Part shown: piece by piece, positions 11,101 through 53,100 of the stretch | Numbering within the stretch: position 1 is the first letter of the stretch | Layout: each line of letters opens with the position of its first letter | Program-made: the position numbers and the translations under genes | Source: Sipunculus nudus | Lineage: Eukaryota > Annelida > Sipuncula > Golfingiida > Sipunculidae | DNA length: 64,000 nucleotides | Direction: 5' to 3' | Assembly: GCA_026874595.1 (NCBI GenBank) | Contig: CM049309.1 | Span: forward strand, 92,960,723 to 93,024,722 | Notes under the pieces: generated by a model | The model's database searches: none | Seen by the model: only the letters and a program-made list of their open reading frames with translations | Told to the model about the DNA's origin: nothing

Positions 11101-14100
11101 CTGTGGGCACATCACTAAATCAGCAAGTCAATCTGTTTACCGAGTTATCTGATTATCATCAGTGAAAATGGGATGTGTGGTTGAATGCAGACACATAATG
11201 AAATATGATATATTTTAGTGTGAATCACAAATGTTACACAGGAGCTTCTCATGGATATATCCCAGAGGTTCAGGCCCTGAAGGTCTGTGGTTCAAAACCC
11301 AGTTCCTGCTCAGGTATGTTGTACAGTCTTAACTTAGTGACATAGATTCACTAAAGTCATATATACCAAAACTAATAGCAAAAATTAGTTATATTCAGAA
11401 AACCATGTTCTTCTTGAGATGCTCATAGTCATGTGATATTGATATTATCCCCTTACTTCAAGCATGTGTGGACAGTTGTTAACAGTGACATGCACTGGTC
11501 AGATCATTAATGTCTTGACTAAGGGAAACTTTACTCTCCCAAGGAAGTGGCAAGACTAAGCATATTTTGCTCTGTCTACATGTTGCCAGTTTCCTGGCTA
11601 TGGATTGGTTTTGACATATTTTGCTCTGTCTACATGCTGCCAGTTTCCTGGCTATGGATGGGTTTTGACATATTTTGCTCTGTCTACATGCTGCCAGTTT
11701 CCTGGCTATGGATGGGTTTTGACATATTTTGCTCTGTCTACATGCTGCCAGTTCAGAGCACAATATGTTAAAACCCATCCAATCCATATTTTCTATGGTT
11801 ATTTAATGATCTCATATATTTTGGTCAAACATAGGTGTACTGGTGGGTCCTGTGATAGTGTGTCTTAGCCATCTGACTGCACATTTGGCTGGAACAAAAT
11901 CATAATGAATCCCCCTGAGAAGTTCTGAGCTTAAACCATATAACATCTTGAAAAACCCAAATCAGTAAAAGTTATGATGACCTGATGTCTCTAAGTTAAA
12001 AGCTGAAAGCAATATGAGAACCTTGAAGGTCAGACTTATCTTGATGAACAAATATCATTGAAACAATCTTCTCCACTGAAAGGGTACATGTATGTATGAG
12101 TTGAAACTTAAAATCAGCCAAATCATTTCTTTGAAATGTCAGTGACATTGTTGAAATTCATAATAATTGTACCATGTGAGTACAAATCCATACAAAAGAT
12201 TTTTTTCTCAATAATTAATGTATATAGATGGCCTTGAATTTTGAATCTGGACAGCTTTACTGAATGTTGCCTAAACTTGATAATGGCACTGCCGTTGTCT
12301 TAAAAAGAAGTGTAATTGTTAATATAAGACAAATAACAGTAGTCTCATAATTTTACTTAGGAGTGACATATTTTGCATCAGATCATAAAAATGAAATCAT
12401 AGTCAGAACTTATTTTTATACAAAGTTTGAAATAAACTTGGGTAGCCATTACATCATATTGGTCATAATTTTTCAGATTATATTGGGTCTTACTGTCACA
12501 GGTTGAAATTATGTGGCGCTTGTATTGTTAGCATAAAGCCCTCATTGTATATTTGGTGTCAGTTAACATTGTTTATCCCTTATCTCATAAAGATATATGG
12601 GAGCAAAAACCTGTCCTTATCAAAGAGGGGGAGTATATATGTCTAGTGATAATTTATAGTTTACTAATGATATAACAATCTCTGTTATCAATGTATTAGT
12701 CACAGTTATTTAAAGTGCACGCTTACAATTATGTTTCAAGTAGCCAGTTAAATATAAGGAACAGTTATTATTTTAAGTAAATTTCTTAGTTGTTACATTT
12801 ACAATTTTCAGACAAATTTTTGGCTTCATAAATTTAGTATTTAAAGTATTTTTAGCTCAGCTTACTGTAAATCATCTGAGCTGTAGCAATCACCCCATTG
12901 TAACCATTAGACCTAGAAACTTCTAACTGACAGTCTGTACATCTAGGGAGATCCTAGGTAAATCTCCTTCGAAATCTAAAATTAGGTCATGGTGACCTAT
13001 ATTTTGTGACCTATGGGCTGAAAGCATGATTTTGAGCACCAGGACAGTCAGACGAGGCCCTATTGTAGCCATTAGGCATAGAATGCTCTAACATAACATT
13101 CAAGGAGGTTCTAGGCAAAATCCCTTGGAATTGAAAAGTTATGAAGTGAAAACTATTCAGTAACTTCTTATTTTCTTTAAAAAAAACTAATTGTATCTTC
13201 CTTTATTATTCTGTTGCTCTGCTGTCTGCATTTATATGTACAGTTTTAATGACAATTTTTTCAGGCTTTAACTATGAGAGTGAAAACCAGGACCAAGATG
13301 ACGTGCTGGAAAGTTTGGACCAAGTGGCACTAGCATTTACCAGCAGGTGAGGTTTGTTCACAATCAAGATTTAGCTAAGTTGCACTAGCATTCACCAGCA
13401 GGTGAGGTTTGTTCACAATCAAGATTTAACTTAGTGGCACTAGCATTCACCAGCAGGTGAGGTTTGTTCACAATCAAGATTTAACTTAGTGGCACTAGCA
13501 TTCACCAGCAGGTGAGGTTTGTTCACAATCAAGATTTAGCTAAGTTGCACTAGCATTCACCAGCAGGTGAGGTTTGTTCACAATCAAGATTTAGCTTAGT
13601 GGCACTAGCATTCACCAGCAGGTGAGGTTTGTTCACAATCAAGATTTAACTTAGGGGCACTAGCATTCACCAGCAGGTGAGGTTTGTTCACAATCAAGAT
13701 TTAACTTAGTGGCACTAGCATTCACCAGCAGGTGAGGTTTGTTCACAATCAAGATTTAACTTAGTGGCACTAGCATTCACCAGCAGGTGAGGTTTGTTCA
13801 CAATCAAGATTTAGCTTAGTGGCACTAGCATTCACCAGCAGGTGAGGTTTGTTCACAATCAAGATTTAACTTAGTGGCACTAGCATTCACCAGCAGGTGA
13901 GGTTTGTTCACAATCAAGATTTAGCTTAGTGGCACTAGCATTCACCAGCAGGTGAGGTTTGTTCACAATCAAGATTTAACTTAGTGGCACTGGCATTCAC
14001 CAGCAGGTGAGGTTTGTTCACAATCAAGATTTAGCTTAGTGGCACTAGCATTCACCAGCAGGTGAGGTTTGTTCACAATCAAGAATTAGCTTGGTGGCAC

Positions 14101-17100
14101 TAGCATTCACCAGCAGGTGAGGTTTGTTCACAATCAAGATTTAACTTAGTGGCACTAGCATTCACCAGCAGGTGAGGTTTGTTCACAATCAAGATTTAAC
14201 TTAGTGGCACTAGCATTCACCAGCAGGTGAGGTTTGTTCACAATCAAGATTTAACTTAGTGGCACTAGCATTCACCAGCAGGTGAGGTTTGTTTACAATC
14301 AAAATTCAGCTTAGTGGCACTAGCATTCACCAGCAGGTTAGGTTTGTTCACAATCAAGATTTAACTTAGTGGCACTAGCATTCACCAGCAGGTGAGGTTT
14401 GTTCACAATCAAGATTTAACTTAGTGGCACTAGCGTTCACCAGCAGGTTAGGTTTGTTCACAATCAAGATTTAACTTAGTGGCACTAGCATTCACCAGCA
14501 GGTGAGGTTTGTTCACAATCAAGATTTAACTTAGTGGCACTAGCATTCACCAGCAGGTGAGGTTTGTTCACAATCAAGATTTAACTTAGTGGCACTAGCA
14601 TTCACCAGCAGGTGAGGTTTGTTCACAATCAAGATTTAACTTAGTGGCACTAGCATTCACCAGCAGGTGAGGTTTGTTCACAATCAAGATTTAGCTTAGT
14701 GGCACTAGCATTCACCAGCAGGTGAGGTTTGTTCACAATCAAGATTTAACTTAGTGGCACTAGCATTCACCAGCAGGTGAGGTTTGTTCACAATCAAGAT
14801 TTAACTTAGGGGCACTAGCATTCACCAGCAGGTGAGGTTTGTTCACAATCAAGATTTAACTTAGTGGCACTAGCATTCACCAGCAGGTGAGGTTTGTTCA
14901 CAATCAAGATTTAACTTAGTGGCACTAGCATTCACCAGCAGGTGAGGTTTGTTCACAATCAAGATTTAGCTTAGTGGCACTAGCATTCACCAGCAGGTGA
15001 GGTTTGTTCACAATCAAGATTTAACTTAGTGGCACTAGCATTCACCAGCAGGTGAGGTTTGTTCACAATCAAGATTTAGCTTAGTGGCACTAGCATTCAC
15101 CAGCAGGTGAGGTTTGTTCACAATCAAGATTTAACTTAGTGGCACTGGCATTCACCAGCAGGTGAGGTTTGTTCACAATCAAGATTTAGCTTAGTGGCAC
15201 TAGCATTCACCAGCAGGTGAGGTTTGTTCACAATCAAGAATTAGCTTGGTGGCACTAGCATTCACCAGCAGGTGAGGTTTGTTCACAATCAAGATTTAAC
15301 TTAGTGGCACTAGCATTCACCAGCAGGTGAGGTTTGTTCACAATCAAGATTTAACTTAGTGGCACTAGCATTCACCAGCAGGTGAGGTTTGTTCACAATC
15401 AAGATTTAACTTAGTGGCACTAGCATTCACCAGCAGGTGAGGTTTGTTTACAATCAAAATTCAGCTTAGTGGCACTAGCATTCACCAGCAGGTTAGGTTT
15501 GTTCACAATCAAGATTTAACTTAGTGGCACTAGCATTCACCAGCAGGTGAGGTTTGTTCACAATCAAGATTTAACTTAGTGGCACTAGCGTTCACCAGCA
15601 GGTTAGGTTTGTTCACAATCAAGATTTAACTTAGTGGCACTAGCATTCACCAGCAGGTGAGGTTTGTTCACAATCAAGATTTAACTTAGTGGCACTAGCA
15701 TTCACCAGCAGGTGAGGTTTGTTCACAATCAAGATTTAACTTAGTGGCACTAGCATTCACCAGCAGGTGAGGTTTGTTCACAATCAAGATTTAGCTTAGT
15801 GGCACTAGCATTCACCAGCAGGTGAGGTTTGTTCACAATCAAGATTTAACTTAGTGGCACTAGCATTCACCAGCAGGTGAGGTTTGTTCACAATCAAGAT
15901 TTAACTTAGTGGCACTAGCATTCACCAGCAGGTGAGGTTTGTTTACAATCAAAATTCAGCTTAGTGGCACTAGCATTCACCAGCAGGTGAGGTTTGTTCA
16001 CAATCAAGATTTAACTTAGTGGCACTAGCATTCACCAGCAGGTGAGGTTTGTTCACAATCAAGATTTAACTTAGTGGCACTAGCATTCACCAGCAGGTGA
16101 GGTTTGTTCACAATCAAGATTTAACTTAGTGGCACTAGCATTCACCAGCAGGTGAGGTTTGTTCACAATCAAGATTTAACTTAGTGGCACTAGCATTCAC
16201 CAGCAGGTGAGGTTTGTTCACAATCAAGATTTAACTTAGTGGCACTAGCATTCACCAGCAGGTGAGGTTTGTTTACAATCAAAATTCAGCTTAGTGGCAC
16301 TAGCATTCACCAGCAGGTTAGGTTTGTTCACAATCAAGATTTAGCTAAGTGGCACTAGCATTCACCAGCAGGTGAGGTTTGTTCACAATCAAGATTTAAC
16401 TTAGTGGCACTAGCATTCACCAGCAGGTGAGGTTTGTTCACAATCAAGAATTAACTTAGTGGCACTAGCATTCACCAGCAGGTGAGGTTTGTTCACAATC
16501 AAGATTTAACTTAGTGGCACTAGCATTCACCAGCAGGTGAGGTTTGTTCACAATCAAGATTTAGCTAAGTGGCACTAGCATTCACCAGCAGGTGAGGTTT
16601 GTTCACAATCAAGATTTAACTTAGTGACACTAGCATTCACCAGCAGGTGAGGTTTGTTCACAATCAAGAATTAACTTAGTGGCACTAGCATTCACCAGCA
16701 GGTGAGGTTTGTTCACAATCAAGATTTAACTTAGTGGCACTAGCATTCACCAGCAGGTGAGGTTTGTTCACAATCAAGATTTAACTTAGTGGCACTAGCA
16801 TTCACCAGCAGGTTAGGTTTGTTCACAATCAAGATTTAACTTAGTGGCACTAGCATTCACCAGCAGGTGAGGTTTGTTCACAATCAAGATTTAACTTAGT
16901 GGCACAAGCATTCACCAGCAGGTGAGGTTTGTTCACAATCAAGATTTAGCTTAGTGGCACTAGCATTCACCAGCAGGTGAGGTTTGTTCACAATCAAGAT
17001 TTAGCTTAGTGGCACTAGCATTCACCAGCAGGTGAGGTTTGTTCACAATCAAGATTTAACTTAGTGGCACTAGCATTCACCAGCAGGTGAGGTTTGTTCA

Positions 17101-20100
17101 CAATCAAGATTTAACTTAGTGGCACTAGCATTCACCAGCAGGTGAGGTTTGTTCACAATCAAGATTTAACTTAGTGGCACTAGCATTCACCAGCAGGTGA
17201 GGTTTGTTCACAATCAAGATTTAACTTAGTGGCACTAGCATTCACCAGCAGGTGAGGTTTGTTTACAATCAAAATTCAGCTTAGTGGCACTAGCATTCAC
17301 CAGCAGGTTAGGTTTGTTCACAATCAAGATTTAGCTAAGTGGCACTAGCATTCACCAGCAGGTGAGGTTTGTTCACAATCAGGATTTAACTTAGTGGCAC
17401 TAGCATTCACCAGCAGGTGAGGTTTGTTCACAATCAAGAATTAACTTAGTGGCACTAGCATTCACCAGCAGGTGAGGTTTGTTCACAATCAAGATTTAAC
17501 TTAGTGGCACTAGCATTCACCAGCAGGTGAGGTTTGTTCACAATCAAGATTTAACTTAGTGGCACTAGCATTCACCAGCAGGTGAGGTTTGTTCACAATC
17601 AAGATTTAGCTAAGTGGCACTAGCATTCACCAGCAGGTGAGGTTTGTTCACAATCAAGATTTAACTTAGTGGCACTAGCATTCACCAGCAGGTGAGGTTT
17701 GTTCACAATCAAGATTTAACTTAGTGGCACTAGCATTCACCAGCAGGTTAGGTTTGTTCACAATCAAGATTTAACTTAGTGGCACTAGCATTCACCAGCA
17801 GGTGAGGTTTGTTTACAATCAAAATTCAGCTTAGTGGCACTAGCATTCACCAGCAGGTTAGGTTTGTTCACAATCAAGATTTAGCTAAGTGGCACTAGCA
17901 TTCACCAGCAGGTGAGGTTTGTTCACAATCAAGATTTAACTTAGTGGCACTAGCATTCACCAGCAGGTGAGGTTTGTTCACAATCAAGATTTAACTTAGT
18001 GGCACTAGCATTCACCAGCAGGTGAGGTTTGTTCACAATCAAGATTTAACTTAGTGGCACAAGCATTCACCAGCAGGTGAGGTTTGTTCACAATCAAGAT
18101 TTAGCTTAGTGGCACTAGCATTCACCAGCAGGTGAGGTTTGTTCACAATCAAGATTTAGCTTAGTGGCACTAGCATTCACCAGCAGGTGAGGTTTGTTCA
18201 CAATCAAGATTTAACTTAGTGGCACTAGCATTCACCAGCAGGTGAGGTTTGTTCACAATCAAGATTTAACTTAGTGGCACTAGCATTCACCAGCAGGTGA
18301 GGTTTGTTCACAGTCAAGATTTAACTTAGTGGCACTAGCATTCACCAGCAGGTGAGGTTTGTTCACAGTCAAGATTTAACTTAGTGGCACTAGCATTCAC
18401 CAGCAGGTTAGGTTTGTTCACAATCAAGATTTAACTTAGTGGCACTAGCATTCACCAGCAGGTTAGGTTTGTTCACAATCAAGATTTAACTTAGTGGCAC
18501 TAGCATTCACCAGCAGGTGAGGTTTGTTCACAATCAAGATTTAACTTAGTGGCACTAGCATTCACCAGCAGGTGAGGTTTGTTCACAATCAAGATTTAAC
18601 TTAGTGGCACTAGCATTCACCAGCAGGTGAGGTTTGTTCACAATCAAGATTTAACTTAGTGGCACTAGCATTCACCAGCAGGTGAGGTTTGTTCACAATC
18701 AAGATTTAGCTTAGTGGCACTAGCATTCACCAGCAGGTGAGGTTTGTTCACAATCAAGATTTAACTTAGTGGCACTAGCATTCACCAGCAGGTGAGGTTT
18801 GTTCACAATCAAGATTTAACTTAGTGGCACTAGCATTCACCAGCAGGTGAGGTTTGTTTACAATCAAAATTCAGCTTAGTGGCACTAGCATTCACCAGCA
18901 GGTTAGGTTTGTTCACAATCAAGATTTAACTTAGTGGCACTAGCATTCACCAGCAGGTGAGGTTTGTTCACAATCAAGATTTAGCTAAGTGGCACTAGCA
19001 TTCACCAGCAGGTGAGGTTTGTTCACAATCAAGATTTAACTTAGTGACACTAGCATTCACCAGCAGGTGAGGTTTGTTCACAATCAAGAATTAACTTAGT
19101 GGCACTAGCATTCACCAGCAGGTGAGGTTTGTTCACAATCAAGATTTAACTTAGTGGCACTAGCATTCACCAGCAGGTGAGGTTTGTTCACAATCAAGAT
19201 TTAACTTAGTGGCACTAGCATTCACCAGCAGGTTAGGTTTGTTCACAATCAAGATTTAACTTAGTGGCACTAGCATTCACCAGCAGGTGAGGTTTGTTTA
19301 CAATCAAAATTCAGCTTAGTGGCACTAGCATTCACCAGCAGGTTAGGTTTGTTCACAATCAAGATTTAGCTAAGTGGCACTAGCATTCACCAGCAGGTGA
19401 GGTTTGTTCACAATCAAGATTTAACTTAGTGGCACTAGCATTCACCAGCAGGTGAGGTTTGTTCACAATCAAGATTTAACTTAGTGGCACTAGCATTCAC
19501 CAGCAGGTGAGGTTTGTTCACAATCAAGATTTAACTTAGTGGCACAAGCATTCACCAGCAGGTGAGGTTTGTTCACAATCAAGATTTAGCTTAGTGGCAC
19601 TAGCATTCACCAGCAGGTGAGGTTTGTTCACAATCAAGATTTAGCTTAGTGGCACTAGCATTCACCAGCAGGTGAGGTTTGTTCACAATCAAGATTTAAC
19701 TTAGTGGCACTAGCATTCACCAGCAGGTGAGGTTTGTTCACAATCAAGATTTAACTTAGTGGCACTAGCATTCACCAGCAGGTGAGGTTTGTTCACAATC
19801 AAGATTTAACTTAGTGGCACTAGCATTCACCAGCAGGTGAGGTTTGTTCACAATCAAGATTTAACTTAGTGGCACTAGCATTCACCAGCAGGTGAGGTTT
19901 GTTTACAATCAAAATTCAGCTTAGTGGCACTAGCATTCACCAGCAGGTTAGGTTTGTTCACAATCAAGATTTAGCTAAGTGGCACTAGCATTCACCAGCA
20001 GGTGAGGTTTGTTCACAATCAAGAATTAACTTAGTGGCACTAGCATTCACCAGCAGGTGAGGTTTGTTCACAATCAAGATTTAACTTAGTGGCACTAGCA

Positions 20101-23100
20101 TTCACCAGCAGGTGAGGTTTGTTCACAATCAAGATTTAACTTAGTGGCACTAGCATTCACCAGCAGGTGAGGTTTGTTCACAATCAAGATTTAGCTAAGT
20201 GGCACTAGCATTCACCAGCAGGTGAGGTTTGTTCACAATCAAGATTTAACTTAGTGACACTAGCATTCACCAGCAGGTGAGGTTTGTTCACAATCAAGAA
20301 TTAACTTAGTGGCACTAGCATTCACCAGCAGGTGAGGTTTGTTCACAATCAAGATTTAACTTAGTGGCACTAGCATTCACCAGCAGGTGAGGTTTGTTCA
20401 CAATCAAGATTTAACTTAGTGGCACTAGCATTCACCAGCAGGTTAGGTTTGTTCACAATCAAGATTTAACTTAGTGGCACTAGCATTCACCAGCAGGTGA
20501 GGTTTGTTTACAATCAAAATTCAGCTTAGTGGCACTAGCATTCACCAGCAGGTTAGGTTTGTTCACAATCAAGATTTAGCTAAGTGGCACTAGCATTCAC
20601 CAGCAGGTGAGGTTTGTTCACAATCAAGATTTAACTTAGTGGCACTAGCATTCACCAGCAGGTGAGGTTTGTTCACAATCAAGATTTAACTTAGTGGCAC
20701 TAGCATTCACCAGCAGGTGAGGTTTGTTCACAATCAAGATTTAACTTAGTGGCACAAGCATTCACCAGCAGGTGAGGTTTGTTCACAATCAAGATTTAGC
20801 TTAGTGGCACTAGCATTCACCAGCAGGTGAGGTTTGTTCACAATCAAGATTTAGCTTAGTGGCACTAGCATTCACCAGCAGGTGAGGTTTGTTCACAATC
20901 AAGATTTAACTTAGTGGCACTAGCATTCACCAGCAGGTGAGGTTTGTTCACAATCAAGATTTAACTTAGTGGCACTAGCATTCACCAGCAGGTGAGGTTT
21001 GTTCACAATCAAGATTTAACTTAGTGGCACTAGCATTCACCAGCAGGTGAGGTTTGTTCACAATCAAGATTTAACTTAGTGGCACTAGCATTCACCAGCA
21101 GGTGAGGTTTGTTTACAATCAAAATTCAGCTTAGTGGCACTAGCATTCACCAGCAGGTTAGGTTTGTTCACAATCAAGATTTAGCTAAGTGGCACTAGCA
21201 TTCACCAGCAGGTGAGGTTTGTTCACAATCAAGAATTAACTTAGTGGCACTAGCATTCACCAGCAGGTGAGGTTTGTTCACAATCAAGATTTAACTTAGT
21301 GGCACTAGCATTCACCAGCAGGTGAGGTTTGTTCACAATCAAGATTTAACTTAGTGGCACTAGCATTCACCAGCAGGTGAGGTTTGTTCACAATCAAGAT
21401 TTAGCTAAGTGGCACTAGCATTCACCAGCAGGTGAGGTTTGTTCACAATCAAGATTTAACTTAGTGACACTAGCATTCACCAGCAGGTGAGGTTTGTTCA
21501 CAATCAAGAATTAACTTAGTGGCACTAGCATTCACCAGCAGGTGAGGTTTGTTCACAATCAAGATTTAACTTAGTGGCACTAGCATTCACCAGCAGGTGA
21601 GGTTTGTTCACAATCAAGATTTAACTTAGTGGCACTAGCATTCACCAGCAGGTGAGGTTTGTTTACAATCAAAATTCAGCTTAGTGGCACTAGCATTCAC
21701 CAGCAGGTTAGGTTTGTTCACAATCAAGATTTAGCTAAGTGGCACTAGCATTCACCAGCAGGTGAGGTTTGTTCACAATCAAGATTTAACTTAGTGGCAC
21801 TAGCATTCACCAGCAGGTGAGGTTTGTTCACAATCAAGAATTAACTTAGTGGCACTAGCATTCACCAGCAGGTGAGGTTTGTTCACAATCAAGATTTAAC
21901 TTAGTGGCACTAGCATTCACCAGCAGGTGAGGTTTGTTCACAATCAAGATTTAACTTAGTGGCACTAGCATTCACCAGCAGGTGAGGTTTGTTCACAATC
22001 AAGATTTAGCTAAGTGGCACTAGCATTCACCAGCAGGTGAGGTTTGTTCACAATCAAGATTTAACTTAGTGACACTAGCATTCACCAGCAGGTGAGGTTT
22101 GTTCACAATCAAGAATTAACTTAGTGGCACTAGCATTCACCAGCAGGTGAGGTTTGTTCACAATCAAGATTTAACTTAGTGGCACTAGCATTCACCAGCA
22201 GGTGAGGTTTGTTCACAATCAAGATTTAACTTAGTGGCACTAGCATTCACCAGCAGGTTAGGTTTGTTCACAATCAAGATTTAACTTAGTGGCACTAGCA
22301 TTCACCAGCAGGTGAGGTTTGTTTACAATCAAAATTCAGCTTAGTGGCACTAGCATTCACCAGCAGGTTAGGTTTGTTCACAATCAAGATTTAGCTAAGT
22401 GGCACTAGCATTCACCAGCAGGTGAGGTTTGTTCACAATCAAGATTTAACTTAGTGGCACTAGCATTCACCAGCAGGTGAGGTTTGTTCACAATCAAGAT
22501 TTAACTTAGTGGCACTAGCATTCACCAGCAGGTGAGGTTTGTTCACAATCAAGATTTAACTTAGTGGCACAAGCATTCACCAGCAGGTGAGGTTTGTTCA
22601 CAATCAAGATTTAGCTTAGTGGCACTTGCATTCACCAGCAGGTGAGGTTTGTTCACAATCAAGATTTAGCTTAGTGGCACTAGCATTCACCAGCAGGTGA
22701 GGTTTGTTCACAATCAAGATTTAACTTAGTGGCACTAGCATTCACCAGCAGGTGAGGTTTGTTCACAATCAAGATTTAACTTAGTGGCACTAGCATTCAC
22801 CAGCAGGTGAGGTTTGTTCACAATCAAGATTTAACTTAGTGGCACTAGCATTCACCAGCAGGTGAGGTTTGTTCACAATCAAGATTTAACTTAGTGGCAC
22901 TAGCATTCACCAGCAGGTGAGGTTTGTTTACAATCAAAATTCAGCTTAGTGGCACTAGCATTCACCAGCAGGTTAGGTTTGTTCACAATCAAGATTTAGC
23001 TAAGTGGCACTAGCATTCACCAGCAGGTGAGGTTTGTTCACAATCAAGAATTAACTTAGTGGCACTAGCATTCACCAGCAGGTGAGGTTTGTTCACAATC

Positions 23101-38100: not shown

Positions 38101-41100
38101 GGTTTGTTCACAATCAAGATTTAACTTAGTGGCACTAGCATTCACCAGCAGGTGAGGTTTGTTCACAATCAAGATTTAACTTAGTGGCACTAGCATTCAC
38201 CAGCAGGTGAGGTTTGTTCACAATCAAGATTTAACTTAGTGGCACTAGCATTCACCAGCAGGTGAGGTTTGTTCACAATCAAGATTTAGCTTAGTGGCAC
38301 TAGCATTCACCAGCAGGTGAGGTTTGTTCACAATCAAGATTTAACTTAGTGGCACTAGCATTCACCAGCAGGTGAGGTTTGTTCACAATCAAGATTTAAC
38401 TTAGTGGCACTAGCATTCACCAGCAGGTGAGGTTTGTTTACAATCAAAATTCAGCTTAGTGGCACTAGCATTCACCAGCAGGTTAGGTTTGTTCACAATC
38501 AAGATTTAACTTAGTGGCACTAGCATTCACCAGCAGGTGAGGTTTGTTCACAATCAAGATTTAACTTAGTGGCACTAGCATTCACCAGCAGGTTAGGTTT
38601 GTTCACAATCAAGATTTAACTTAGTGGCACTAGCATTCACCAGCAGGTGAGGTTTGTTCACAATCAAGATTTAACTTAGTGGCACTAGCATTCACCAGCA
38701 GGTGAGGTTTGTTCACAATCAAGGTTTAACTTAGTGGCACTAGCATTCACCAGCAGGTGAGGTTTGTTTACAATCAAAATTCAGCTTAGTGGCACTAGCA
38801 TTCACCAGCAGGTTAGGTTTGTTCACAATCAAGATTTAGCTAAGTGGCACTAGCATTCACCAGCAGGTGAGGTTTGTTCACAATCAAGATTTAACTTAGT
38901 GGCACTAGCATTCACCAGCAGGTGAGGTTTGTTCACAATCAAGAATTAACTTAGTGGCACTAGCATTCACCAGCAGGTGAGGTTTGTTCACAATCAAGAT
39001 TTAACTTAGTGGCACTAGCATTCACCAGCAGGTGAGGTTTGTTCACAATCAAGATTTAACTTAGTGGCACTAGCATTCACCAGCAGGTGAGGTTTGTTCA
39101 CAATCAAGATTTAGCTAAGTGGCACTAGCATTCACCAGCAGGTGAGGTTTGTTCACAATCAAGATTTAACTTAGTGACACTAGCATTCACCAGCAGGTGA
39201 GGTTTGTTCACAATCAAGAATTAACTTAGTGGCACTAGCATTCACCAGCAGGTGAGGTTTGTTCACAATCAAGATTTAACTTAGTGGCACTAGCATTCAC
39301 CAGCAGGTGAGGTTTGTTCACAATCAAGATTTAACTTAGTGGCACTAGCATTCACCAGCAGGTTAGGTTTGTTCACAATCAAGATTTAACTTAGTGGCAC
39401 TAGCATTCACCAGCAGGTGAGGTTTGTTTACAATCAAAATTCAGCTTAGTGGCACTAGCATTCACCAGCAGGTTAGGTTTGTTCACAATCAAGATTTAGC
39501 TAAGTGGCACTAGCATTCACCAGCAGGTGAGGTTTGTTCACAATCAAGATTTAACTTAGTGGCACTAGCATTCACCAGCAGGTGAGGTTTGTTCACAATC
39601 AAGATTTAACTTAGTGGCACTAGCATTCACCAGCAGGTGAGGTTTGTTCACAATCAAGATTTAACTTAGTGGCACAAGCATTCACCAGCAGGTGAGGTTT
39701 GTTCACAATCAAGATTTAGCTTAGTGGCACTAGCATTCACCAGCAGGTGAGGTTTGTTCACAATCAAGATTTAGCTTAGTGGCACTAGCATTCACCAGCA
39801 GGTGAGGTTTGTTCACAATCAAGATTTAACTTAGTGGCACTAGCATTCACCAGCAGGTGAGGTTTGTTCACAATCAAGATTTAACTTAGTGGCACTAGCA
39901 TTCACCAGCAGGTGAGGTTTGTTCACAATCAAGATTTAACTTAGTGGCACTAGCATTCACCAGCAGGTGAGGTTTGTTCACAATCAAGATTTAACTTAGT
40001 GGCACTAGCATTCACCAGCAGGTGAGGTTTGTTTACAATCAAAATTCAGCTTAGTGGCACTAGCATTCACCAGCAGGTTAGGTTTGTTCACAATCAAGAT
40101 TTAGCTAAGTGGCACTAGCATTCACCAGCAGGTGAGGTTTGTTCACAATCAAGAATTAACTTAGTGGCACTAGCATTCACCAGCAGGTGAGGTTTGTTCA
40201 CAATCAAGATTTAACTTAGTGGCACTAGCATTCACCAGCAGGTGAGGTTTGTTCACAATCAAGATTTAACTTAGTGGCACTAGCATTCACCAGCAGGTGA
40301 GGTTTGTTCACAATCAAGATTTAACTTAGTGGCACTAGCATTCACCAGCAGGTGAGGTTTGTTCACAATCAAGATTTAACTTAGTGGCACTAGCATTCAC
40401 CAGCAGGTGAGGTTTGTTCACAATCAAGATTTAACTTAGTGGCACTAGCATTCACCAGCAGGTGAGGTTTGTTCACAATCAAGATTTAGCTAAGTGGCAC
40501 TAGCATTCACCAGCAGGTGAGGTTTGTTCACAATCAAGATTTAACTTAGTGACACTAGCATTCACCAGCAGGTGAGGTTTGTTCACAATCAAGAATTAAC
40601 TTAGTGGCACTAGCATTCACCAGCAGGTGAGGTTTGTTCACAATCAAGATTTAACTTAGTGGCACTAGCATTCACCAGCAGGTGAGGTTTGTTCACAATC
40701 AAGATTTAACTTAGTGGCACTAGCATTCACCAGCAGGTTAGGTTTGTTCACAATCAAGATTTAACTTAGTGGCACTAGCATTCACCAGCAGGTGAGGTTT
40801 GTTTACAATCAAAATTCAGCTTAGTGGCACTAGCATTCACCAGCAGGTTAGGTTTGTTCACAATCAAGATTTAGCTAAGTGGCACTAGCATTCACCAGCA
40901 GGTGAGGTTTGTTCACAATCAAGATTTAACTTAGTGGCACTAGCATTCACCAGCAGGTGAGGTTTGTTCACAATCAAGATTTAACTTAGTGGCACTAGCA
41001 TTCACCAGCAGGTGAGGTTTGTTCACAATCAAGATTTAACTTAGTGGCACAAGCATTCACCAGCAGGTGAGGTTTGTTCACAATCAAGATTTAGCTTAGT

Positions 41101-44100
41101 GGCACTAGCATTCACCAGCAGGTGAGGTTTGTTCACAATCAAGATTTAGCTTAGTGGCACTAGCATTCACCAGCAGGTGAGGTTTGTTCACAATCAAGAT
41201 TTAACTTAGTGGCACTAGCATTCACCAGCAGGTGAGGTTTGTTCACAATCAAGATTTAACTTAGTGGCACTAGCATTCACCAGCAGGTGAGGTTTGTTCA
41301 CAATCAAGATTTAACTTAGTGGCACTAGCATTCACCAGCAGGTGAGGTTTGTTCACAATCAAGATTTAACTTAGTGGCACTAGCATTCACCAGCAGGTGA
41401 GGTTTGTTTACAATCAAAATTCAGCTTAGTGGCACTAGCATTCACCAGCAGGTTAGGTTTGTTCACAATCAAGATTTAGCTAAGTGGCACTAGCATTCAC
41501 CAGCAGGTGAGGTTTGTTCACAATCAAGAATTAACTTAGTGGCACTAGCATTCACCAGCAGGTGAGGTTTGTTCACAATCAAGATTTAACTTAGTGGCAC
41601 TAGCATTCACCAGCAGGTGAGGTTTGTTCACAATCAAGATTTAACTTAGTGGCACTAGCATTCACCAGCAGGTGAGGTTTGTTCACAATCAAGATTTAGC
41701 TAAGTGGCACTAGCATTCACCAGCAGGTGAGGTTTGTTCACAATCAAGATTTAACTTAGTGACACTAGCATTCACCAGCAGGTGAGGTTTGTTCACAATC
41801 AAGAATTAACTTAGTGGCACTAGCATTCACCAGCAGGTGAGGTTTGTTCACAATCAAGATTTAACTTAGTGGCACTAGCATTCACCAGCAGGTGAGGTTT
41901 GTTCACAATCAAGATTTAACTTAGTGGCACTAGCATTCACCAGCAGGTGAGGTTTGTTTACAATCAAAATTCAGCTTAGTGGCACTAGCATTCACCAGCA
42001 GGTTAGGTTTGTTCACAATCAAGATTTAGCTAAGTGGCACTAGCATTCACCAGCAGGTGAGGTTTGTTCACAATCAAGATTTAACTTAGTGGCACTAGCA
42101 TTCACCAGCAGGTGAGGTTTGTTCACAATCAAGAATTAACTTAGTGGCACTAGCATTCACCAGCAGGTGAGGTTTGTTCACAATCAAGATTTAACTTAGT
42201 GGCACTAGCATTCACCAGCAGGTGAGGTTTGTTCACAATCAAGATTTAACTTAGTGGCACTAGCATTCACCAGCAGGTGAGGTTTGTTCACAATCAAGAT
42301 TTAGCTAAGTGGCACTAGCATTCACCAGCAGGTGAGGTTTGTTCACAATCAAGATTTAACTTAGTGACACTAGCATTCACCAGCAGGTGAGGTTTGTTCA
42401 CAATCAAGAATTAACTTAGTGGCACTAGCATTCACCAGCAGGTGAGGTTTGTTCACAATCAAGATTTAACTTAGTGGCACTAGCATTCACCAGCAGGTGA
42501 GGTTTGTTCACAATCAAGATTTAACTTAGTGGCACTAGCATTCACCAGCAGGTTAGGTTTGTTCACAATCAAGATTTAACTTAGTGGCACTAGCATTCAC
42601 CAGCAGGTGAGGTTTGTTTACAATCAAAATTCAGCTTAGTGGCACTAGCATTCACCAGCAGGTTAGGTTTGTTCACAATCAAGATTTAGCTAAGTGGCAC
42701 TAGCATTCACCAGCAGGTGAGGTTTGTTCACAATCAAGATTTAACTTAGTGGCACTAGCATTCACCAGCAGGTGAGGTTTGTTCACAATCAAGATTTAAC
42801 TTAGTGGCACTAGCATTCACCAGCAGGTGAGGTTTGTTCACAATCAAGATTTAACTTAGTGGCACAAGCATTCACCAGCAGGTGAGGTTTGTTCACAATC
42901 AAGATTTAGCTTAGTGGCACTTGCATTCACCAGCAGGTGAGGTTTGTTCACAATCAAGATTTAGCTTAGTGGCACTAGCATTCACCAGCAGGTGAGGTTT
43001 GTTCACAATCAAGATTTAACTTAGTGGCACTAGCATTCACCAGCAGGTGAGGTTTGTTCACAATCAAGATTTAACTTAGTGGCACTAGCATTCACCAGCA
43101 GGTGAGGTTTGTTCACAATCAAGATTTAACTTAGTGGCACTAGCATTCACCAGCAGGTGAGGTTTGTTCACAATCAAGATTTAACTTAGTGGCACTAGCA
43201 TTCACCAGCAGGTGAGGTTTGTTTACAATCAAAATTCAGCTTAGTGGCACTAGCATTCACCAGCAGGTTAGGTTTGTTCACAATCAAGATTTAGCTAAGT
43301 GGCACTAGCATTCACCAGCAGGTGAGGTTTGTTCACAATCAAGAATTAACTTAGTGGCACTAGCATTCACCAGCAGGTGAGGTTTGTTCACAATCAAGAT
43401 TTAACTTAGTGGCACTAGCATTCACCAGCAGGTGAGGTTTGTTCACAATCAAGATTTAACTTAGTGGCACTAGCATTCACCAGCAGGTGAGGTTTGTTCA
43501 CAATCAAGATTTAGCTAAGTGGCACTAGCATTCACCAGCAGGTGAGGTTTGTTCACAATCAAGATTTAACTTAGTGACACTAGCATTCACCAGCAGGTGA
43601 GGTTTGTTCACAATCAAGAATTAACTTAGTGGCACTAGCATTCACCAGCAGGTGAGGTTTGTTCACAATCAAGATTTAACTTAGTGGCACTAGCATTCAC
43701 CAGCAGGTGAGGTTTGTTCACAATCAAGATTTAACTTAGTGGCACTAGCATTCACCAGCAGGTTAGGTTTGTTCACAATCAAGATTTAACTTAGTGGCAC
43801 TAGCATTCACCAGCAGGTGAGGTTTGTTTACAATCAAAATTCAGCTTAGTGGCACTAGCATTCACCAGCAGGTTAGGTTTGTTCACAATCAAGATTTAGC
43901 TAAGTGGCACTAGCATTCACCAGCAGGTGAGGTTTGTTCACAATCAAGATTTAACTTAGTGGCACTAGCATTCACCAGCAGGTGAGGTTTGTTCACAATC
44001 AAGATTTAACTTAGTGGCACTAGCATTCACCAGCAGGTGAGGTTTGTTCACAATCAAGATTTAACTTAGTGGCACAAGCATTCACCAGCAGGTGAGGTTT

Positions 44101-47100
44101 GTTCACAATCAAGATTTAGCTTAGTGGCACTAGCATTCACCAGCAGGTGAGGTTTGTTCACAATCAAGATTTAGCTTAGTGGCACTAGCATTCACCAGCA
44201 GGTGAGGTTTGTTCACAATCAAGATTTAACTTAGTGGCACTAGCATTCACCAGCAGGTGAGGTTTGTTCACAATCAAGATTTAACTTAGTGGCACTAGCA
44301 TTCACCAGCAGGTGAGGTTTGTTCACAGTCAAGATTTAACTTAGTGGCACTAGCATTCACCAGCAGGTGAGGTTTGTTCACAGTCAAGATTTAACTTAGT
44401 GGCACTAGCATTCACCAGCAGGTTAGGTTTGTTCACAATCAAGATTTAACTTAGTGGCACTAGCATTCACCAGCAGGTGAGGTTTGTTCACAATCAAGAT
44501 TTAGCTTAGTGGCACTAGCATTCACCAGCAGGTGAGGTTTGTTCACAGTCAAGATTTAACTTAGTGGCACTAGCATTCACCAGCAGGTGAGGTTTGTTCA
44601 CAATCAAGATTTAACTTAGTGGCACTAGCATTCACCAGCAGGTTAGGTTTGTTCACAATCAAGATTTAACTTAGTGGCACTAGCATTCACCAGCAGGTGA
44701 GGTTTGTTCACAATCAAGATTTAGCTAAGTTGCACTAGCATTCACCAGCAGGTGAGGTTTGTTCACAATCAAGATTTAACTTAGTGGCACTAGCATTCAC
44801 CAGCAGGTGAGGTTTGTTCACAATCAAGATTTAACTTAGTGGCACTAGCATTCACCAGCAGGTTAGGTTTGTTCACAATCAAGATTTAACTTAGTGGCAC
44901 TAGCATTCACCAGCAGGTGAGGTTTGTTCACAGTCAAGATTTAACTTAGTGGCACTAGCATTCACCAGCAGGTGAGGTTTGTTCACAATCAAGATTTAAC
45001 TTAGTGGCACTAGCATTCACCAGCTGGTGAGGTTTGTTCACAATCAAGATTTAACTTAGTGGCACTAGCATTCACCAGCAGGTGAGGTTTGTTCACAATC
45101 AAGATTTAACTTAGTGGCACTAGCATTCACCAGCAGGTGAGGTTTGTTCACAATCAAGATTTAACTCAAGATTTTAAAAGTGCAAATCATATACATTATG
45201 CTAGTGGTGAAGTTTTAATTGTATCTGCTAAAACAGAGTTTTGCAGATACTATGTTTTCAGCCCACCGCTATTGCTGCCACGTAGGTGTCCGGAAAACTT
45301 CTCTGTAACCACTGGGCGGAATTTTATGAAACTTGGGATTATGTTTAGGTCACATGTGAACTGCTGCGCCCCGATTTTGTTTTGACCTCTGACCTTTCCT
45401 CTGCGCTCTGCGTTCGTCTATGCGTCTGTGTTCACACATAAACCCCCCTGTTTTTGCACAGCGGACATCTGTTTATCTGCCTTTGGATAAAATCATGCAT
45501 ATCTCTGCAGTGGTTGGACTTATTCTCCTAAAATTTTGCAGGTTTATACATCTTGGATAGATTTTTGTTGATATGACAGGTGGCGCCACCTACCTATGCG
45601 TTTGCAGTGCAGACATCCATGCTTATATCTCAGGACACATTTGACCGATTGGGCTGAAATTTTACATGTTTATTCATCTTGGATAGTTTTTTCATTTTTG
45701 TGACAGGTGGTTCCACCTACCTCCCCGTTTATGCTCCAGACAACCATGCTAATATCTCAGAACTGGTTTGACATATCAGCCTGAGATTTTGCATGTGTAT
45801 TGGTCTAACCTTCAACTGTTTTGCACACTGTCCATCTGTCTGTCTGCCTTGGGATAAAATCATCCACACCAACTAATCTATATCTTTCATGTCATATGTC
45901 ATCTACCACACAAGGTTTTCCCATTACCTCTATATCCTATCACTACTTCACCCGTACCTCTCTGATTTAGGCGGATACACGTAGTCACTTGTTGACTACA
46001 CATATTCTAGTTTACTTTATATTCATATGGCTTCATAATGTTAATGTTACAAGTTTGGCTTCAAGTGCTCAAAACAAGATTTTAAGTACATTAATGAATA
46101 TTGTTTGTTATTTACATAAGATACCAAATCCTAAACAAATGGAACCACTTTATCTTCATTATAAGTACGGTCAGGTGGTTATGCATGGTGCTTTCTATGA
46201 ATGGAGTTGAGAATGGTTGTGGCCGCCCCCCCCCAAATTAATGTCTGAACTGATAAAGAAAAGGATTCGTCAATGTTTCTTGCTTTACTTGTTCTTGCAG
46301 TGTTTCTGACTATTTGATGTATGACTTACTTGTTCTTGCAGTGTTTCTGACTATTTGATGTATGACTTACTTGTTCTTGCAGTGTTTCTGACTATTTGAT
46401 GTATGACTTACTTGTTCTTGCAGTGTTTCTGACTATTTGATGTATGACTTACTTGTTCTTGCAGTGTTTCTGACTATTTGATTTATGACTTACTTGTTCT
46501 TGCAGTGTTTCTGACTATTTGATGTATGACTTACTTGTTCTTGCAGTGTTTCTGACTATTTGATGTATGACTTACTTGTTCTTGCAGTGTTTCTGACTAT
46601 TTGATTTATGACTTACTTGTTCTTGCAGTGTTTCTGACTATTTGATTTATGACTTACTTGTTCTTGCAGTGTTTCTGACTATTTGATTTATGACTTACTT
46701 GTTCTTGCAGTGTTTCTGACTATTTGATGTATGACTTACTTGTTCTTGCAGTGTTTCTGACTATTTGATGTATGACTTACTTGTTCTTGCAGTGTTTCTG
46801 ACTATTTGATGTATGACTTACTTGTTCTTGCAGTGTTTCTGACTATTTGATGTATGACTTACTTGTTCTTGCAGTGTTTCTGACTATTTGATGTATGACT
46901 TACTTGTTCTTGCAGTGTTTCTGACTATTTGATGTATGACTTACTTGTTCTTGCAGTGTTTCTGACTATTTGATTTATGACTTACTTGTTCTTGCAGTGT
47001 TTCTGACTATTTGATGTATGACTTACTTGTTCTTGCAGTGTTTCTGACTATTTGATGTATGACTTACTTGTTCTTGCAGTGTTTCTGACTATTTGATGTA

Positions 47101-50100
47101 TGACTTACTTGTTCTTGCAGTGTTTCTGACTTTTTGATGTATGACTTACTTGTTCTTGCAGTGTTTCTGACTATTTGATGTATGACTTACTTGTTCTTGC
47201 AGTGTTTCTGACTATTTGATGTATGACTTACTTGTTCTTGCAGTGTTTCTGACTATTTGATTTATGACTTACTTGTTCTTGCAGTGTTTCTGACTATTTG
47301 ATGTATGACTTACTTGTTCTTGCAGTGTTTCTGACTATTTGATGTATGACTTACTTGTTCTTGCAGTGTTTCTGACTATTTGATTTATGACTTACTTGTT
47401 CTTGCAGTGTTTCTGACTATTTGATTTATGACTTACTTGTTCTTGCAGTGTTTCTGACTATTTGATTTATGACTTACTTGTTCTTGCAGTGTTTCTGACT
47501 ATTTGATGTATGACTTACTTGTTCTTGCAGTGTTTCTGACTATTTGATTTATGACTTACTTGTTCTTGCAGTGTTTCTGACTATTTGATGTATGACTTAC
47601 TTGTTCTTGCAGTGTTTCTGACTATTTGATTTATGACTTACTTGTTCTTGCAGTGTTTCTGACTATTTGATTTATGACTTACTTGTTCTTGCAGTGTTTC
47701 TGACTATTTGATTTATGACTTACTTGTTCTTGCAGTGTTTCTGACTATTTGATTTATGACTTACTTGTTCTTGCAGTGTTTCTGACTATTTGATTTATGA
47801 CTTACTTGTTCTTGCAGTGTTTCTGACTATTTGATTTATGACTTACTTGTTCTTGCAGTGTTTCTGACTATTTGATGTATGACTTACTTGTTCTTGCAGT
47901 GTTTCTGACTATTTGATGTATGACTTACTTGTTCTTGCAGTGTTTCTGACTATTTGATGTATGACTTACTTGTTCTTGCAGTGTTTCTGACTATTTGATG
48001 TATGACTTACTTGTTCTTGCAGTGTTTCTGACTATTTGATGTATGACTTACTTGTTCTTGCAGTGTTTCTGACTATTTGATTTATGACTTACTTGTTCTT
48101 GCAGTGTTTCTGACTATTTGATTTATGACTTACTTGTTCTTGCAGTGTTTCTGACTATTTGATTTATGACTTACTTGTTCTTGCAGTGTTTCTGACTATT
48201 TGATTTATGACTTACTTGTTCTTGCAGTGTTTCTGACTATTTGATTTATGACTTACTTGTTCTTGCAGTGTTTCTGACTATTTGATGTATGACTTACTTG
48301 TTCTTGCAGTGTTTCTGACTATTTGATTTATGACTTACTTGTTCTTGCAGTGTTTCTGACTATTTGATGTATGACTTACTTGTTCTTGCAGTGTTTCTGA
48401 CTATTTGATTTATGACTTACTTGTTCTTGCAGTGTTTCTGACTATTTGATTTATGACTTACTTGTTCTTGCAGTGTTTCTGACTATTTGATTTATGACTT
48501 ACTTGTTCTTGCAGTGTTTCTGACTATTTGATTTATGACTTACTTGTTCTTGCAGTGTTTCTGACTATTTGATTTATGACTTACTTGTTCTTGCAGTGTT
48601 TCTGACTATTTGATTTATGACTTACTTGTTCTTGCAGTGTTTCTGACTATTTGATGTATGACTTACTTGTTCTTGCAGTGTTTCTGACTATTTGATGTAT
48701 GACTTACTTGTTCTTGCAGTGTTTCTGACTATTTGATGTATGACTTACTTGTTCTTGCAGTGTTTCTGACTATTTGATGTATGACTTACTTGTTCTTGCA
48801 GTGTTTCTGACTATTTGATGTATGACTTACTTGTTCTTGCAGTGTTTCTGACTATTTGATGTATGACTTACTTGTTCTTGCAGTGTTTCTGACTATTTGA
48901 TGTATGACTTACTTGTTCTTGCAGTGTTTCTGACTATTTGATTTATGACTTACTTGTTCTTGCAGTGTTTCTGACTATTTGATGTATGACTTACTTGTTC
49001 TTGCAGTGTTTCTGACTATTTGATGTATGACTTACTTGTTCTTGCAGTGTTTCTGACTATTTGATGTATGACTTACTTGTTCTTGCAGTGTTTCTGACTA
49101 TTTGATGTATGACTTACTTGTTCTTGCAGTGTTTCTGACTATTTGATGTATGACTTACTTGTTCTTGCAGTGTTTCTGACTATTTGATGTATGACTTACT
49201 TGTTCTTGCAGTGTTTCTGACTATTTGATGTATGACTTACTTGTTCTTGCAGTGTTTCTGACTATTTGATGTATGACTTACTTGTTCTTGCAGTGTTTCT
49301 GACTATTTGATGTATGACTTACTTGTTCTTGCAGTGTTTCTGACTATTTGATGTATGACTTACTTGTTCTTGCAGTGTTTCTGACTATTTGATGTATGAC
49401 TTACTTGTTCTTGCAGTGTTTCTGACTATTTGATGTATGACTTACTTGTTCTTGCAGTGTTTCTGACTATTTGATGTATGACTTACTTGTTCTTGCAGTG
49501 TTTCTGACTATTTGATGTATGACTTACTTGTTCTTGCAGTGTTTCTGACTATTTGATGTATGACTTACTTGTTCTTGCAGTGTTTCTGACTATTTGATGT
49601 ATGACTTACTTGTTCTTGCAGTGTTTCTGACTATTTGATGTATGACTTACTTGTTCTTGCAGTGTTTCTGACTATTTGATGTATGACTTACTTGTTCTTG
49701 CAGTGTTTCTGACTATTTGATGTATGACTTACTTGTTCTTGCAGTGTTTCTGACTATTTGATTTATGACTTACTTGTTCTTGCAGTGTTTCTGACTATTT
49801 GATGTATGACTTACTTGTTCTTGCAGTGTTTCTGACTATTTGATGTATGATATTGAAGTGTCAAAGCAAAACTCCAGCAGAAATAAGGTAAACACCTTCA
49901 CTTATCTTCAAAGATAATGGATGGTTTTGTAATCGCTTGCTTCAGGTTGATTTATTATCCATGTAGTATGTATTGATCATAGTAATGTCAGCGGTATTTC
50001 TTATAAAGGTCATACCGATTGTAAAAGTGAAGATAGAGGAGTGCCCTTGGCTGTCCAAATCTTCCTGGTTAGCTCAGCTGACTATAAGTCATCTGAGCTA

Positions 50101-53100
50101 TAGTCGTGGTCCATTGTCCGTCGTCCGTCCATCTGTCCGTCTGTCCGTCCGTCCGTCCGCCGGCTGTAGATGTGGCACGTTTTGAAACCGTAAGACCTAG
50201 GAATCCAAAATTCAGCATAATGTTAGATGTCCCCAAGATCTCCTACCAAGCCGAAAACTGGGTCTTTGCGACTTCGTTCCTTTGAGAAATTAAGGAAAAA
50301 CCTCAATTTTGTTATTAAAATCCTATTTTCACACTTCAGGACTGCCTAATATCAAAACCGCTCATCTGTTTTTCCTCATATTTACCATAAATATTCCTAT
50401 ATATACTTCCTATGTACATGCCAGAAATAAAGTCTGTAAAGTATAAATTCTTTAAGTTATGGGCCCAAACATAATGGACTTTGTAAAAAATCAGGAAAAA
50501 TAATAACTCACTTAACATGAACAATTTTGTAACTAGAGTCTATTTTCTCAAGTATATAACTATGTTTAATTAAGATTCAACTGTTTACCAAAAATTAGAT
50601 CTGAATTTTGTAAATTTTTAAAGTTATTAGCATAAAAAAAAAATCAGTACTTTAAATTTTGCCCAACTTTGACCATGGCACGTTTTTTTCTTGAAAGCAC
50701 CATTGATTTAATTTTCACAGCATGTAAACATAAATATTTAGTTTGTCTAAATCTGAAATTTGAAAATAAAAGCTTGAAAATTAAGCTAGTTATTGATTTT
50801 TTTTTCTGTAGTCACTTGCTTTGATTACAGATGCAGGGTCCCACTCCAGGTCACTGGAAGTCAGCTATGCCAGGGTTTCTGATTTGTTACAGTCACTGGG
50901 GGAGATCCCCTTCTGTGACAGGTGTACAGTTATTCTCATATCCCCCCCCCCCCCCCCGGGCAAACACAACCCACCAAGTGTTATGCAGTAATTGTTATTG
51001 TTTTCACTGTATCTCCTTAATTGTAATGCTGTTTCCACTCCGATATGCAAAAACTTTCCTAGAAAAAATAATTCAAGGTGTAATCCAGAAGATGCAATGT
51101 TGTGTAATGTAGCATTTTTAAAGAAATAAATTTTCTTTTAAATGATTTTAACAAATATAAATGAACCTGTCAGTATGCTTAAATTATTAAAAAATATGAA
51201 GCACATTATGGATAAATAAAGACACAATTAAAAATTGTGAAATCTAAATCAAGTATTATTTTTAGATATTTATTGTTTTGCAGATATAAAAGATATATTT
51301 TTGTGGTAAAAAATAAATAAACATTTGTATGCATGATGTGGTGTTATCTGACAAGATTGAGATTTATGATGATGCAATTGAGAATTTTGAATCAACTTTT
51401 ATATTCAGATATATATGTTAAATTGGAAATGTATAGAAATATAAACTTAAATTAGAATATAATTGATGTGATAAAAAAATCAGGATTTAATACAAACATT
51501 TGTTCATTATTTTCCTGCCTCAGCAGAATTTGAGATCAGGCTTTGTTTGCCCTGTTTTATGTTGTTAATTAGCTATATTTCAACTGTATACATTTCATAA
51601 AATATACATATATATTTAATAATATATGTTATACAAAAAAATAGATGCAATTGAACAAATGTGTAAACTACTGAAATGTCAACAATTAATCGAAAAACCA
51701 ACTAATGATCATGGTAATAGTACAGATCATTTGTTCACAAACTGCTCACATGCTTTAGTTTCAACATTAGGAAACACATGGTCAGGTCACAAAATATTTT
51801 TTGCAACAATTTCTTGCTCATCAATACAAACCAATCATATAAACCAACCATGGCCTTTATTACCTCTTCCTCTTACACTTTATTTCCATTAGATATTATT
51901 TTAGATTTTTACCTTCAAGGTGAACGTCAGCTGAGCACAGTGACCCATAGGTCCCTTGTTTTTAACAAATATTCCTTGTTTTAAAATTATTTGGTATCTA
52001 AGATTAAAAAAGGCATTGAACTGTAGTAATATGTGAAAACAGGGGTATTCCATTTGTTGCAGCAAGTGGTTGTTTCTTTGTTAAAGGCACTGTTCCACCA
52101 AATTAATCATGATCTAGAAATATACTTTGCTGACTACCAAGCGCCAGCATCCGAACCAAGGAGAGTGCCTTGTATTAGTTATTATAACTAGTTGTACAAT
52201 CCATGTAAAATAAATAAAGTTTATATTTATATATACTTTTTATATGTAACAGAGTGACAGTGTAGAAGTCACCATAGCCCATTTTAAGATATGTATTTAT
52301 GATATCTCCCGTGACTGTAATATAGATACCCACCTCAGCTGCTACCCAGCGGTATTTTAACAATATAATGCTTTAGATAATCATTTGCTCCTGTCAAGCA
52401 GTGTAATAAATAATCCAGATATCTGGTTGAACAGTGTGGAAAATTCTGACATTCATGCATACTTTACACCAGAATATAATATGCACCAGTAAAATATAAT
52501 ACACAGACCATCTTAATTTCAGTGAACAACTTATATTAGTTGATTTTCTGTTTCAGTCACAAGAGAATATTGCACTAGTCCAGGCCAGAAACAACTCCAG
52601 AGAACCATCCCAGAATCCTGATGAGTACAGAGACAGCAGTGAGTGTTTATGATGTTCAAATATGATGATAATGATTATAATGATAGTGTGGATGATTGAA
52701 ATAATAAAATAAAAATAATAAAAAAAGACATTTATAACCATGCACTCTACTTCCACCATGAATTTATATATATGTATATATATATGTAGGCCCGGCCTAA
52801 ATCCCAATCAGGATTTAGTCTTAACCCAATCGCTGAATGGCCCAGACTTGTATTTGGGCCTTGACATATATACTGTGGATGGGTTTATTTTCGCGATGCT
52901 GAAGTTTCACTATTTCTTCCTTTTGAATGTTTTGCAAGGGTTTCACTTTACAATTGCACCAGAACCAATAAAATCTGCAGTATTTGTATTAATTTCAAAT
53001 TTAGAATGAATCCTACGCTATACCTAAAAAATTTCTGATTCAGTCATTAACGTATTTTTCGTGTCACACTCAACATATCCCCTGTGATTAACGCTTAGTT

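Follow-up and report, generated by a model that had tools for sequence, protein, structure and literature searches.

The window analysed in this work is a 64,000-bp stretch of the Sipunculus nudus genome (C4:92960723-93024722; the assembly, the only one used, comprises 1.43 Gb in 153 contigs), whose forward strand carries, according to Pfam and PDB matches, the 5' part of a RhoGAP gene of the ARHGAP29/45 or GMIP type. Our subject is the intron between exons 2 and 3 of this gene (13347-49826, 36,480 bp; exons are numbered within the window only and all lie on the forward strand), at each end of which the splice junction is repeated in a long tandem array. Exon 1 (2042-2176) was identified by a match of its open frame to PF24235, RHG29_45_N (1.4e-13), and is bounded by an acceptor, TTTTCAG, that ends at 2041 and by a donor, AAAG|GTAGGA. 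Joining the 82-bp exon 2 (13265-13346) to it lifts the PF24235 score from 46.9 to 76.6 bits, and further addition of the 61-bp exon 3 (49827-49887) gives 89.1 bits and extends the match to profile position 108, with positions 33-108 covered without a gap across the three exons. Exons 2 and 3 alone exceed the curated cut-off of the family (29.3 vs 27.7 bits). Judging from this Pfam domain, which continues unbroken across the intron, exons 2 and 3 are real and adjacent in the ancestral protein. In exon 4 (50812-50921), which possesses both an acceptor and a donor, the open frame runs on from exon 3, and the F-BAR region further downstream matches the GMIP structure (3qwe in the PDB, 5.3e-26). 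A profile search of the genome with PF24235 returned a single match, namely the RhoGAP gene of the window, which ruled out a comparison with an array-free paralogue.

Array 1 (13323-45166, forward strand) comprises 579 copies of a 55-bp unit in which the closing 24 bp of exon 2 run on into the initial 31 bp of the intron, while array 2 (46285-49850, forward strand) comprises 87 copies of a 41-bp unit, in which the last 16 bp of the intron (TTACTTGTTCTTGCAG) are followed by 25 bp, 24 of them matching the start of exon 3. Thus, the final 24 bp of exon 2 are copy 1 of array 1 and the initial 24 bp of exon 3 belong to the final copy of array 2. Both counts, taken from one assembly, were obtained with Tandem Repeats Finder (TRF; 55 bp x 579.0 with 96% matches and 41 bp x 87.0 with 99% matches) as well as by wrap-around alignment, which resolved array 1 into 578 units of 55 bp and one of 54 bp (26 sequence types) and array 2 into 87 units of 4 types, one of which is the shortened last unit. 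The first donor GT lies at 13347, and the acceptor AGs end at 46300 (first) and 49826 (last). Between the arrays there is a segment of 1,118 bp (45167-46284, forward strand), which includes, according to TRF, a repeat of 127 bp x 2.2 at 45527-45801. The intronic parts of both arrays add up to 35,362 bp, i.e. 96.9% of the intron, and the two units show no relatedness by eye, each being its own junction amplified. The preliminary description of this DNA, according to which the intron starts with 579 copies of its own donor junction and ends with 87 copies of its own acceptor junction, the units being dissimilar and about 97% of the intron being splice-site satellite plus one dispersed element, therefore agrees with our analysis of the two arrays.

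Among the findings that would contradict it, the same description named the occurrence of the arrays as ordinary satellites dispersed elsewhere in the genome. With up to 3 mismatches allowed, the genome yielded 579 forward and 0 reverse matches to a 26-mer of unit 1, a number that the window alone already holds, and 87 forward and 0 reverse matches to a 32-mer of unit 2, all 87 of them within the window. In this search, in which parts of the genome are read as N, neither unit was found outside the window, and the chance insertion of a dispersed satellite was rejected. Since the numbers of matches equal those of the window's own copies, arrays 1 and 2 look like local amplifications rather than visiting satellites.

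The copies offer 579 x 87 = 50,373 possible donor-acceptor pairs of closely similar sequence, among which the reading frame singles out one. When the donor is chosen from the frame of exon 1, exon 2 is free of stop codons with the first donor only (1/579), and, given the first donor, exons 3 and 4 are free of stop codons with the last acceptor only (1/87). The open frame and the conserved protein, from which the splicing pattern is inferred, suggest use of the pair formed by the first donor and the last acceptor. How the cell finds this one pair of 50,373 would lend itself well to testing whether splice sites are chosen by exon definition or on a first-come basis.

A third junction array, absent from the preliminary description, was found in the same gene at exon 9 (61560-61739), which was recognized by the GMIP alignment and ends with the donor CACCGT|GTAAGT. 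Array 3 (61738-62383, forward strand) begins at this donor and is more degenerate than arrays 1 and 2, with a 20-bp unit repeated 29 times in its main part (61738-62290). A likeness to the exon/donor junction is still visible in two distal copies (30-mers at 62284 and at 62328, with ATGCACGGTGTAAGT at 62334).

Could the repeated splice sites serve a function, e.g. as decoys for U1 or U2, by slowing splicing, as poison exons, or through protection by U1 from premature polyadenylation? The splice signals themselves are well kept: the donor GT is invariant in 578/578 full units of array 1, nearly all copies read CAG|GTGAGG or CAG|GTTAGG (intact CCAGCAG|GTKAGG in 576), TTGCAG is kept in 87/87 units of array 2, and in these units the A of a branch-point-like CTGAC lies 32 nt upstream of the AG of the next unit. 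However, most columns of the arrays are invariant anyway, and the third intronic position of the donor is T in 81 of the 578 full units of array 1 (G in 497). Exonic and intronic columns of the unit vary alike (10/24 and 12/31 variable, respectively), hence the extra exon copies exhibit no sign of coding constraint, nor does the unit as a whole exhibit any sign of constraint for function. Likewise, GTAAGT occurs 21 times in 61738-62400, compared to about 29 units counted by TRF in array 3, and the repeat periods among the donor-motif arrays from elsewhere in the genome (see below) are not limited to multiples of 3. Taken together, these features make a function of the arrays unlikely.

The order of the unit types in array 1 carries information on its growth. 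The longest block that recurs without any difference spans 93 units (5,115 bp) and is present at units 222 and 394, and further identical blocks comprise 66, 46 and 43 units; such multi-unit identity points to the exchange of many units at once as the mode of growth. The copy that forms the end of exon 2 carries a T at unit position 16 that is seen in no other of the 578 full units, therefore this copy stands outside the homogenised part of the array, as expected for an authentic exon edge that is the terminal, non-homogenised copy. Long identical blocks in a single assembly are also what one would expect if the arrays or their length were assembly artefacts. Nevertheless, the window sequence contains no N, the 26 unit types of array 1 follow each other in uneven order, three junction arrays occur in one gene and others occur in other genes, all of which makes an artefact very unlikely.

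The preliminary description knew of no comparable system, which does not hold: in amphioxus, minisatellite-like duplications of 5' and 3' exon borders, termed mirages, have been described in the Adh3, globin (BflGb6 and BflGb9), troponin C and PGBD5 genes (PMC3087553, PMC3902484). According to these papers, the length of mirages differs between haplotypes, the units at the edges of the clusters escape homogenisation (PMC3087553, PMC3902484), and splicing is said to be left undisturbed (Adh3 and globins, PMC3087553; Adh and TnC, PMC3902484). The arrays of the RhoGAP gene share with mirages the tandem units that span the exon-intron border of the host gene, on the 5' as well as the 3' side, the locus-specific sequence of the unit (within the searched genome) and, in array 1, the non-homogenised edge unit. 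In our opinion they are probably minisatellites of the mirage type, which grew by unequal exchange and are tolerated because the outer copies alone serve splicing. Short tandem duplications across an exon/intron border would have arisen in three separate events, affecting the donors of exons 2 and 9 and the acceptor of exon 3, and repeated unequal exchange would then have expanded these duplications. The outermost copy would correspond to the original exon edge and would still provide a functional splice site. Exon definition would select the first donor and the last acceptor because they adjoin the rest of their exons, with everything between them treated as intron.

Several points weigh against this interpretation. 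Where the amphioxus papers give copy numbers, published mirages have few copies (6 and 3 in BflGb6, 2-7 in PGBD5; PMC3087553, PMC3902484), unlike the 579 and 87 copies at both ends of one intron reported here. The terminal copy of array 2 carries no private base and only ends earlier, making the homogenisation test uninformative for this array. Growth is deduced from one assembly, in which the identical 5-kb blocks could partly represent assembly effects. Finally, the joining of the first donor to the last acceptor is a prediction read off the DNA.

Related phenomena have been reported in other contexts. Human genes in segmental duplications contain internal tandem repeats at exon-intron boundaries, with a mean unit of 30 bp and 4 copies (PMC2812944); like the arrays studied here, these are minisatellites that alter exon and intron ends. 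However, that report places half of them in coding sequence and considers that the boundary ones may form new introns (PMC2812944), while the arrays of the RhoGAP gene lengthen an existing intron and leave the exon edge unchanged. Gain of introns via tandem duplication of AGGT-containing segments (PMC4974935, PMC2891723) likewise involves tandem duplication over AG|GT but differs from the present case, where the gene gains no intron and an existing one grows at its own splice sites. In an earthworm metallothionein gene intronic minisatellites were found, with no junction-spanning unit described in the sections available (PMC12783039). For amphioxus mirages, the birth of introns or exons from inner copies has been proposed (PMC3087553), and one may ask whether intron gain is under way also here, with inner copies of AG|GT units becoming new exons or introns. 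The units of array 1 hold CAG|GTGAGG, and in some arrays elsewhere in the genome the unit reads as a short GT...AG segment (e.g. the 44-bp unit of L029/L030). On the other hand, use of an inner donor adds a stop codon to exon 2 in 578/579 cases, and a 55-bp unit whose pyrimidine stretch is weak would make a rather short intron, therefore we regard this alternative as quite unlikely. In our literature search, which left subscription papers mostly outside, neither a survey of junction-spanning arrays across a whole genome nor an example from molluscs came up among the papers listed. Thus, junction-spanning repeats as such were already known, and the new elements are the size of the arrays, their presence at both ends of one intron and the sample across one genome described below. 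The questions that the arrays raise, on splice-site choice and on genome evolution, reach beyond the few amphioxus genes covered by these papers, and the window holds a striking and very large example of the mirage type, with further junction arrays elsewhere in the genome.

To sample junction arrays, matches to three spaced copies of a motif were collected for four splice motifs, three of the donor type (CAGGTAAG, AAGGTGAG and TGGTAAGT) and one of the acceptor type (TTTTTCAG), and distinct arrays (more than 20 kb apart) were counted by eye among the matches listed. For CAGGTAAG, 14 distinct arrays were counted in C1 and C2:1-37.2 Mb (148 Mb), compared to 2 for the reversed motif; given the numbers of single copies genome-wide (46,239 vs 37,054), this corresponds to a binomial p of 0.007. 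For the acceptor motif, 14 distinct arrays in C1 and C2:1-26.9 Mb compare with 7 for GACTTTTT, for which only counts were taken and 4 of whose 7 arrays look like one dispersed sequence. Raw numbers of triple-motif rows exceed those of the controls for CAGGTAAG (1,016 vs 270) and AAGGTGAG (970 vs 233) and show no excess for TGGTAAGT (829 vs 1,586) and TTTTTCAG (474 vs 485). As most rows stem from a small number of large arrays, these counts can mislead in either direction and were not accepted as an indicator of enrichment.

For all arrays among the matches listed, 30 with one of the three donor motifs and 14 with the acceptor motif, the flanking sequence was then fetched, and a coding exon at the array edge was regarded as supported if Pfam or PDB gave a match with E < 0.01. 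This was the case for 12/30 donor-motif and 4/14 acceptor-motif arrays (16/44 in total). The exons at the donor arrays belong to a TPR protein, SLC22-like, DOCK, FANCD2, ABCC, HADH, AP5B1, SMC1A, aquaporin (MIP), harmonin-like, FBF1-like and ATG7 (the SLC22-like and harmonin-like cases are weak), and those at the acceptor arrays to MMS19, a sodium/calcium exchanger, DOCK and a C-type lectin. For FANCD2, ABCC, ATG7 and MMS19 the match extends into the first or last repeat unit, hence in these cases the unit holds the true exon edge. By eye alone, a further 10/30 donor-motif and 4/14 acceptor-motif arrays look alike. Among the control arrays (GAATGGAC) none of the 8 has a homology-supported exon, the best value being 0.014 (L043) in a search of 20/32 open frames against Pfam only; the control was thus tested less deeply than the sample, in which PDB mattered for 5 of the 16 supported exons (L015, L055 and L066 being found with PDB only).

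All arrays among the matches listed were assigned individually. For CAGGTAAG (14/14), six have homology support (L013, L015, L019, L020, L024, L026; L015 rests on a PDB match of 8.5e-4 for the whole sequence, with no single stretch passing, and the Pfam match of L019 is below the curated cut-off), six have an exon by eye (L016, L018, L021, L022 with PH 0.018, L023, L025) and two have no exon (L014, L017). For AAGGTGAG (14/14), the corresponding groups are L054, L055, L060, L062 and L063 (L062 and L063 with matches under the Pfam cut-off), L053, L061 and L064, and, without an exon, L052, L056, L057, L059 and L065, with the edge of L058 lying outside the fetched piece. Both TGGTAAGT arrays (2/2) adjoin an exon, that of ATG7 in L066 by homology and that of L067 by eye. 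For TTTTTCAG (14/14), homology supports L030, L031, L035 and L036, and L028, L038, L040 and L041 were accepted by eye, while L027, L032, L033, L034 (no TRF array), L037 and L039 have no exon or are unclear. The control arrays (8/8) comprise none with homology, one by eye on the opposite strand (L045) and one doubtful (L046).

These results reveal a class of junction arrays in the genome. Do splice junctions also act as mutational hot spots, at which pausing of transcription, R-loops or the step in composition seeds duplications, a cause that would be added to growth by unequal exchange? Besides the 14 vs 2 arrays and the row counts of AAGGTGAG, this proposal is favoured by the position of the CAGGTAAG arrays, 12/14 of which start where an exon ends (as judged from homology in 6 and by eye in 6) compared to 1/8 controls (by eye; Fisher p 0.0015, with few distinct arrays and by-eye calls that were not blind). 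With homology-supported exons only, the donor arrays (11/27, leaving aside L066, L067 and L058) still differ from the control (0/8; p 0.037), while the acceptor arrays do not differ significantly (4/14 vs 0/8; p 0.25) and donor and acceptor arrays combined give 15/41 vs 0/8 (p 0.087). Within the window, TRF finds six minisatellite-like arrays (starting at 11561, 13323, 46285, 53332, 60418 and 61738; each array counted once, with a period of 15-80 and 3 or more copies, and with the GTCC microsatellite at 6166 excluded), and 3/6 touch an exon border (p about 0.002 under random placement). Against the proposal, two of the four splice motifs, TGGTAAGT and TTTTTCAG, lack an excess in raw counts, poor measure as rows are, and the odds ratio for array membership varies from 53 to 6 if 500 to 2,400 of about 4,800 CAGGTAAG copies in the 148 Mb are donors, a number that is a guess. 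A bias of arrays to junctions is likely for one donor motif, CAGGTAAG, and not settled in general; as a cause of the arrays, hot spots seem to us quite possible, if somewhat short of probable.

In 148 Mb, single copies of CAGGTAAG show an excess of 954; set against the 12 arrays, this gives a rough estimate that on the order of 1% of CAGGTAAG donors lie in arrays. If junction arrays are this common, some introns may have them at both ends by coincidence, and the special link between the two ends of the intron that the preliminary description had considered is not needed. More speculatively, splice junctions could be genome-wide birthplaces of minisatellites through transcription- or splicing-coupled duplication, affecting about one donor in 100 and sometimes both ends of one intron; the growth of introns would then set out from their splice sites. 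If junctions do seed arrays, part of intron lengthening and intron birth would begin at borders.

Some of the sampled arrays deserve separate mention. L019 (donor) and L035 (acceptor), at 70.125 and 70.148 Mb of C1, share a strand and are separated by about 20 kb; each adjoins an exon that matches the DOCK TPR region, and they apparently belong to one DOCK gene, which would be a second gene with several junction arrays. L040 and L041 (C2, 26.896 and 26.930 Mb) are closely similar acceptor arrays with near-identical exon-like ends about 33 kb apart, as if a gene copy had taken its array along; such a pair could serve to date the array. A PDB match of L041 to outer surface protein A was dropped as short and low-scoring, and L041 may resemble a ligand-gated channel. 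Among the control-motif arrays, L046 (C2, 48.833 Mb) begins where an open frame stops and no donor is clearly recognizable, perhaps at a border of coding sequence and 3' untranslated region (UTR). L045 (C2, 8.885 Mb), read on the opposite strand, includes a donor-like CTCCAG|GTCTGT that follows a coiled-coil-like open frame.

The remaining exons of the window follow from the frame and homology. Exon 5 (54206-54343) begins the F-BAR region, and exons 6 (57861-57925), 7 (58633-58677), 8 (60009-60089) and 10 (62805-62882) are supported by the frame and the GMIP alignment. A short exon between exons 7 and 8, where the GMIP alignment lacks about 17 residues, was not located. About 220 bp upstream of exon 5 lies a pyrimidine-rich array (53332-53983, 30 bp x 21.7) with CCCCAG in many units, which is acceptor-like, yet stops short of the exon. 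Near both ends of the window, at 2549-4052 and 54928-57312, a similar repeat of 337-338 bp occurs in tandem and apparently represents a dispersed family.

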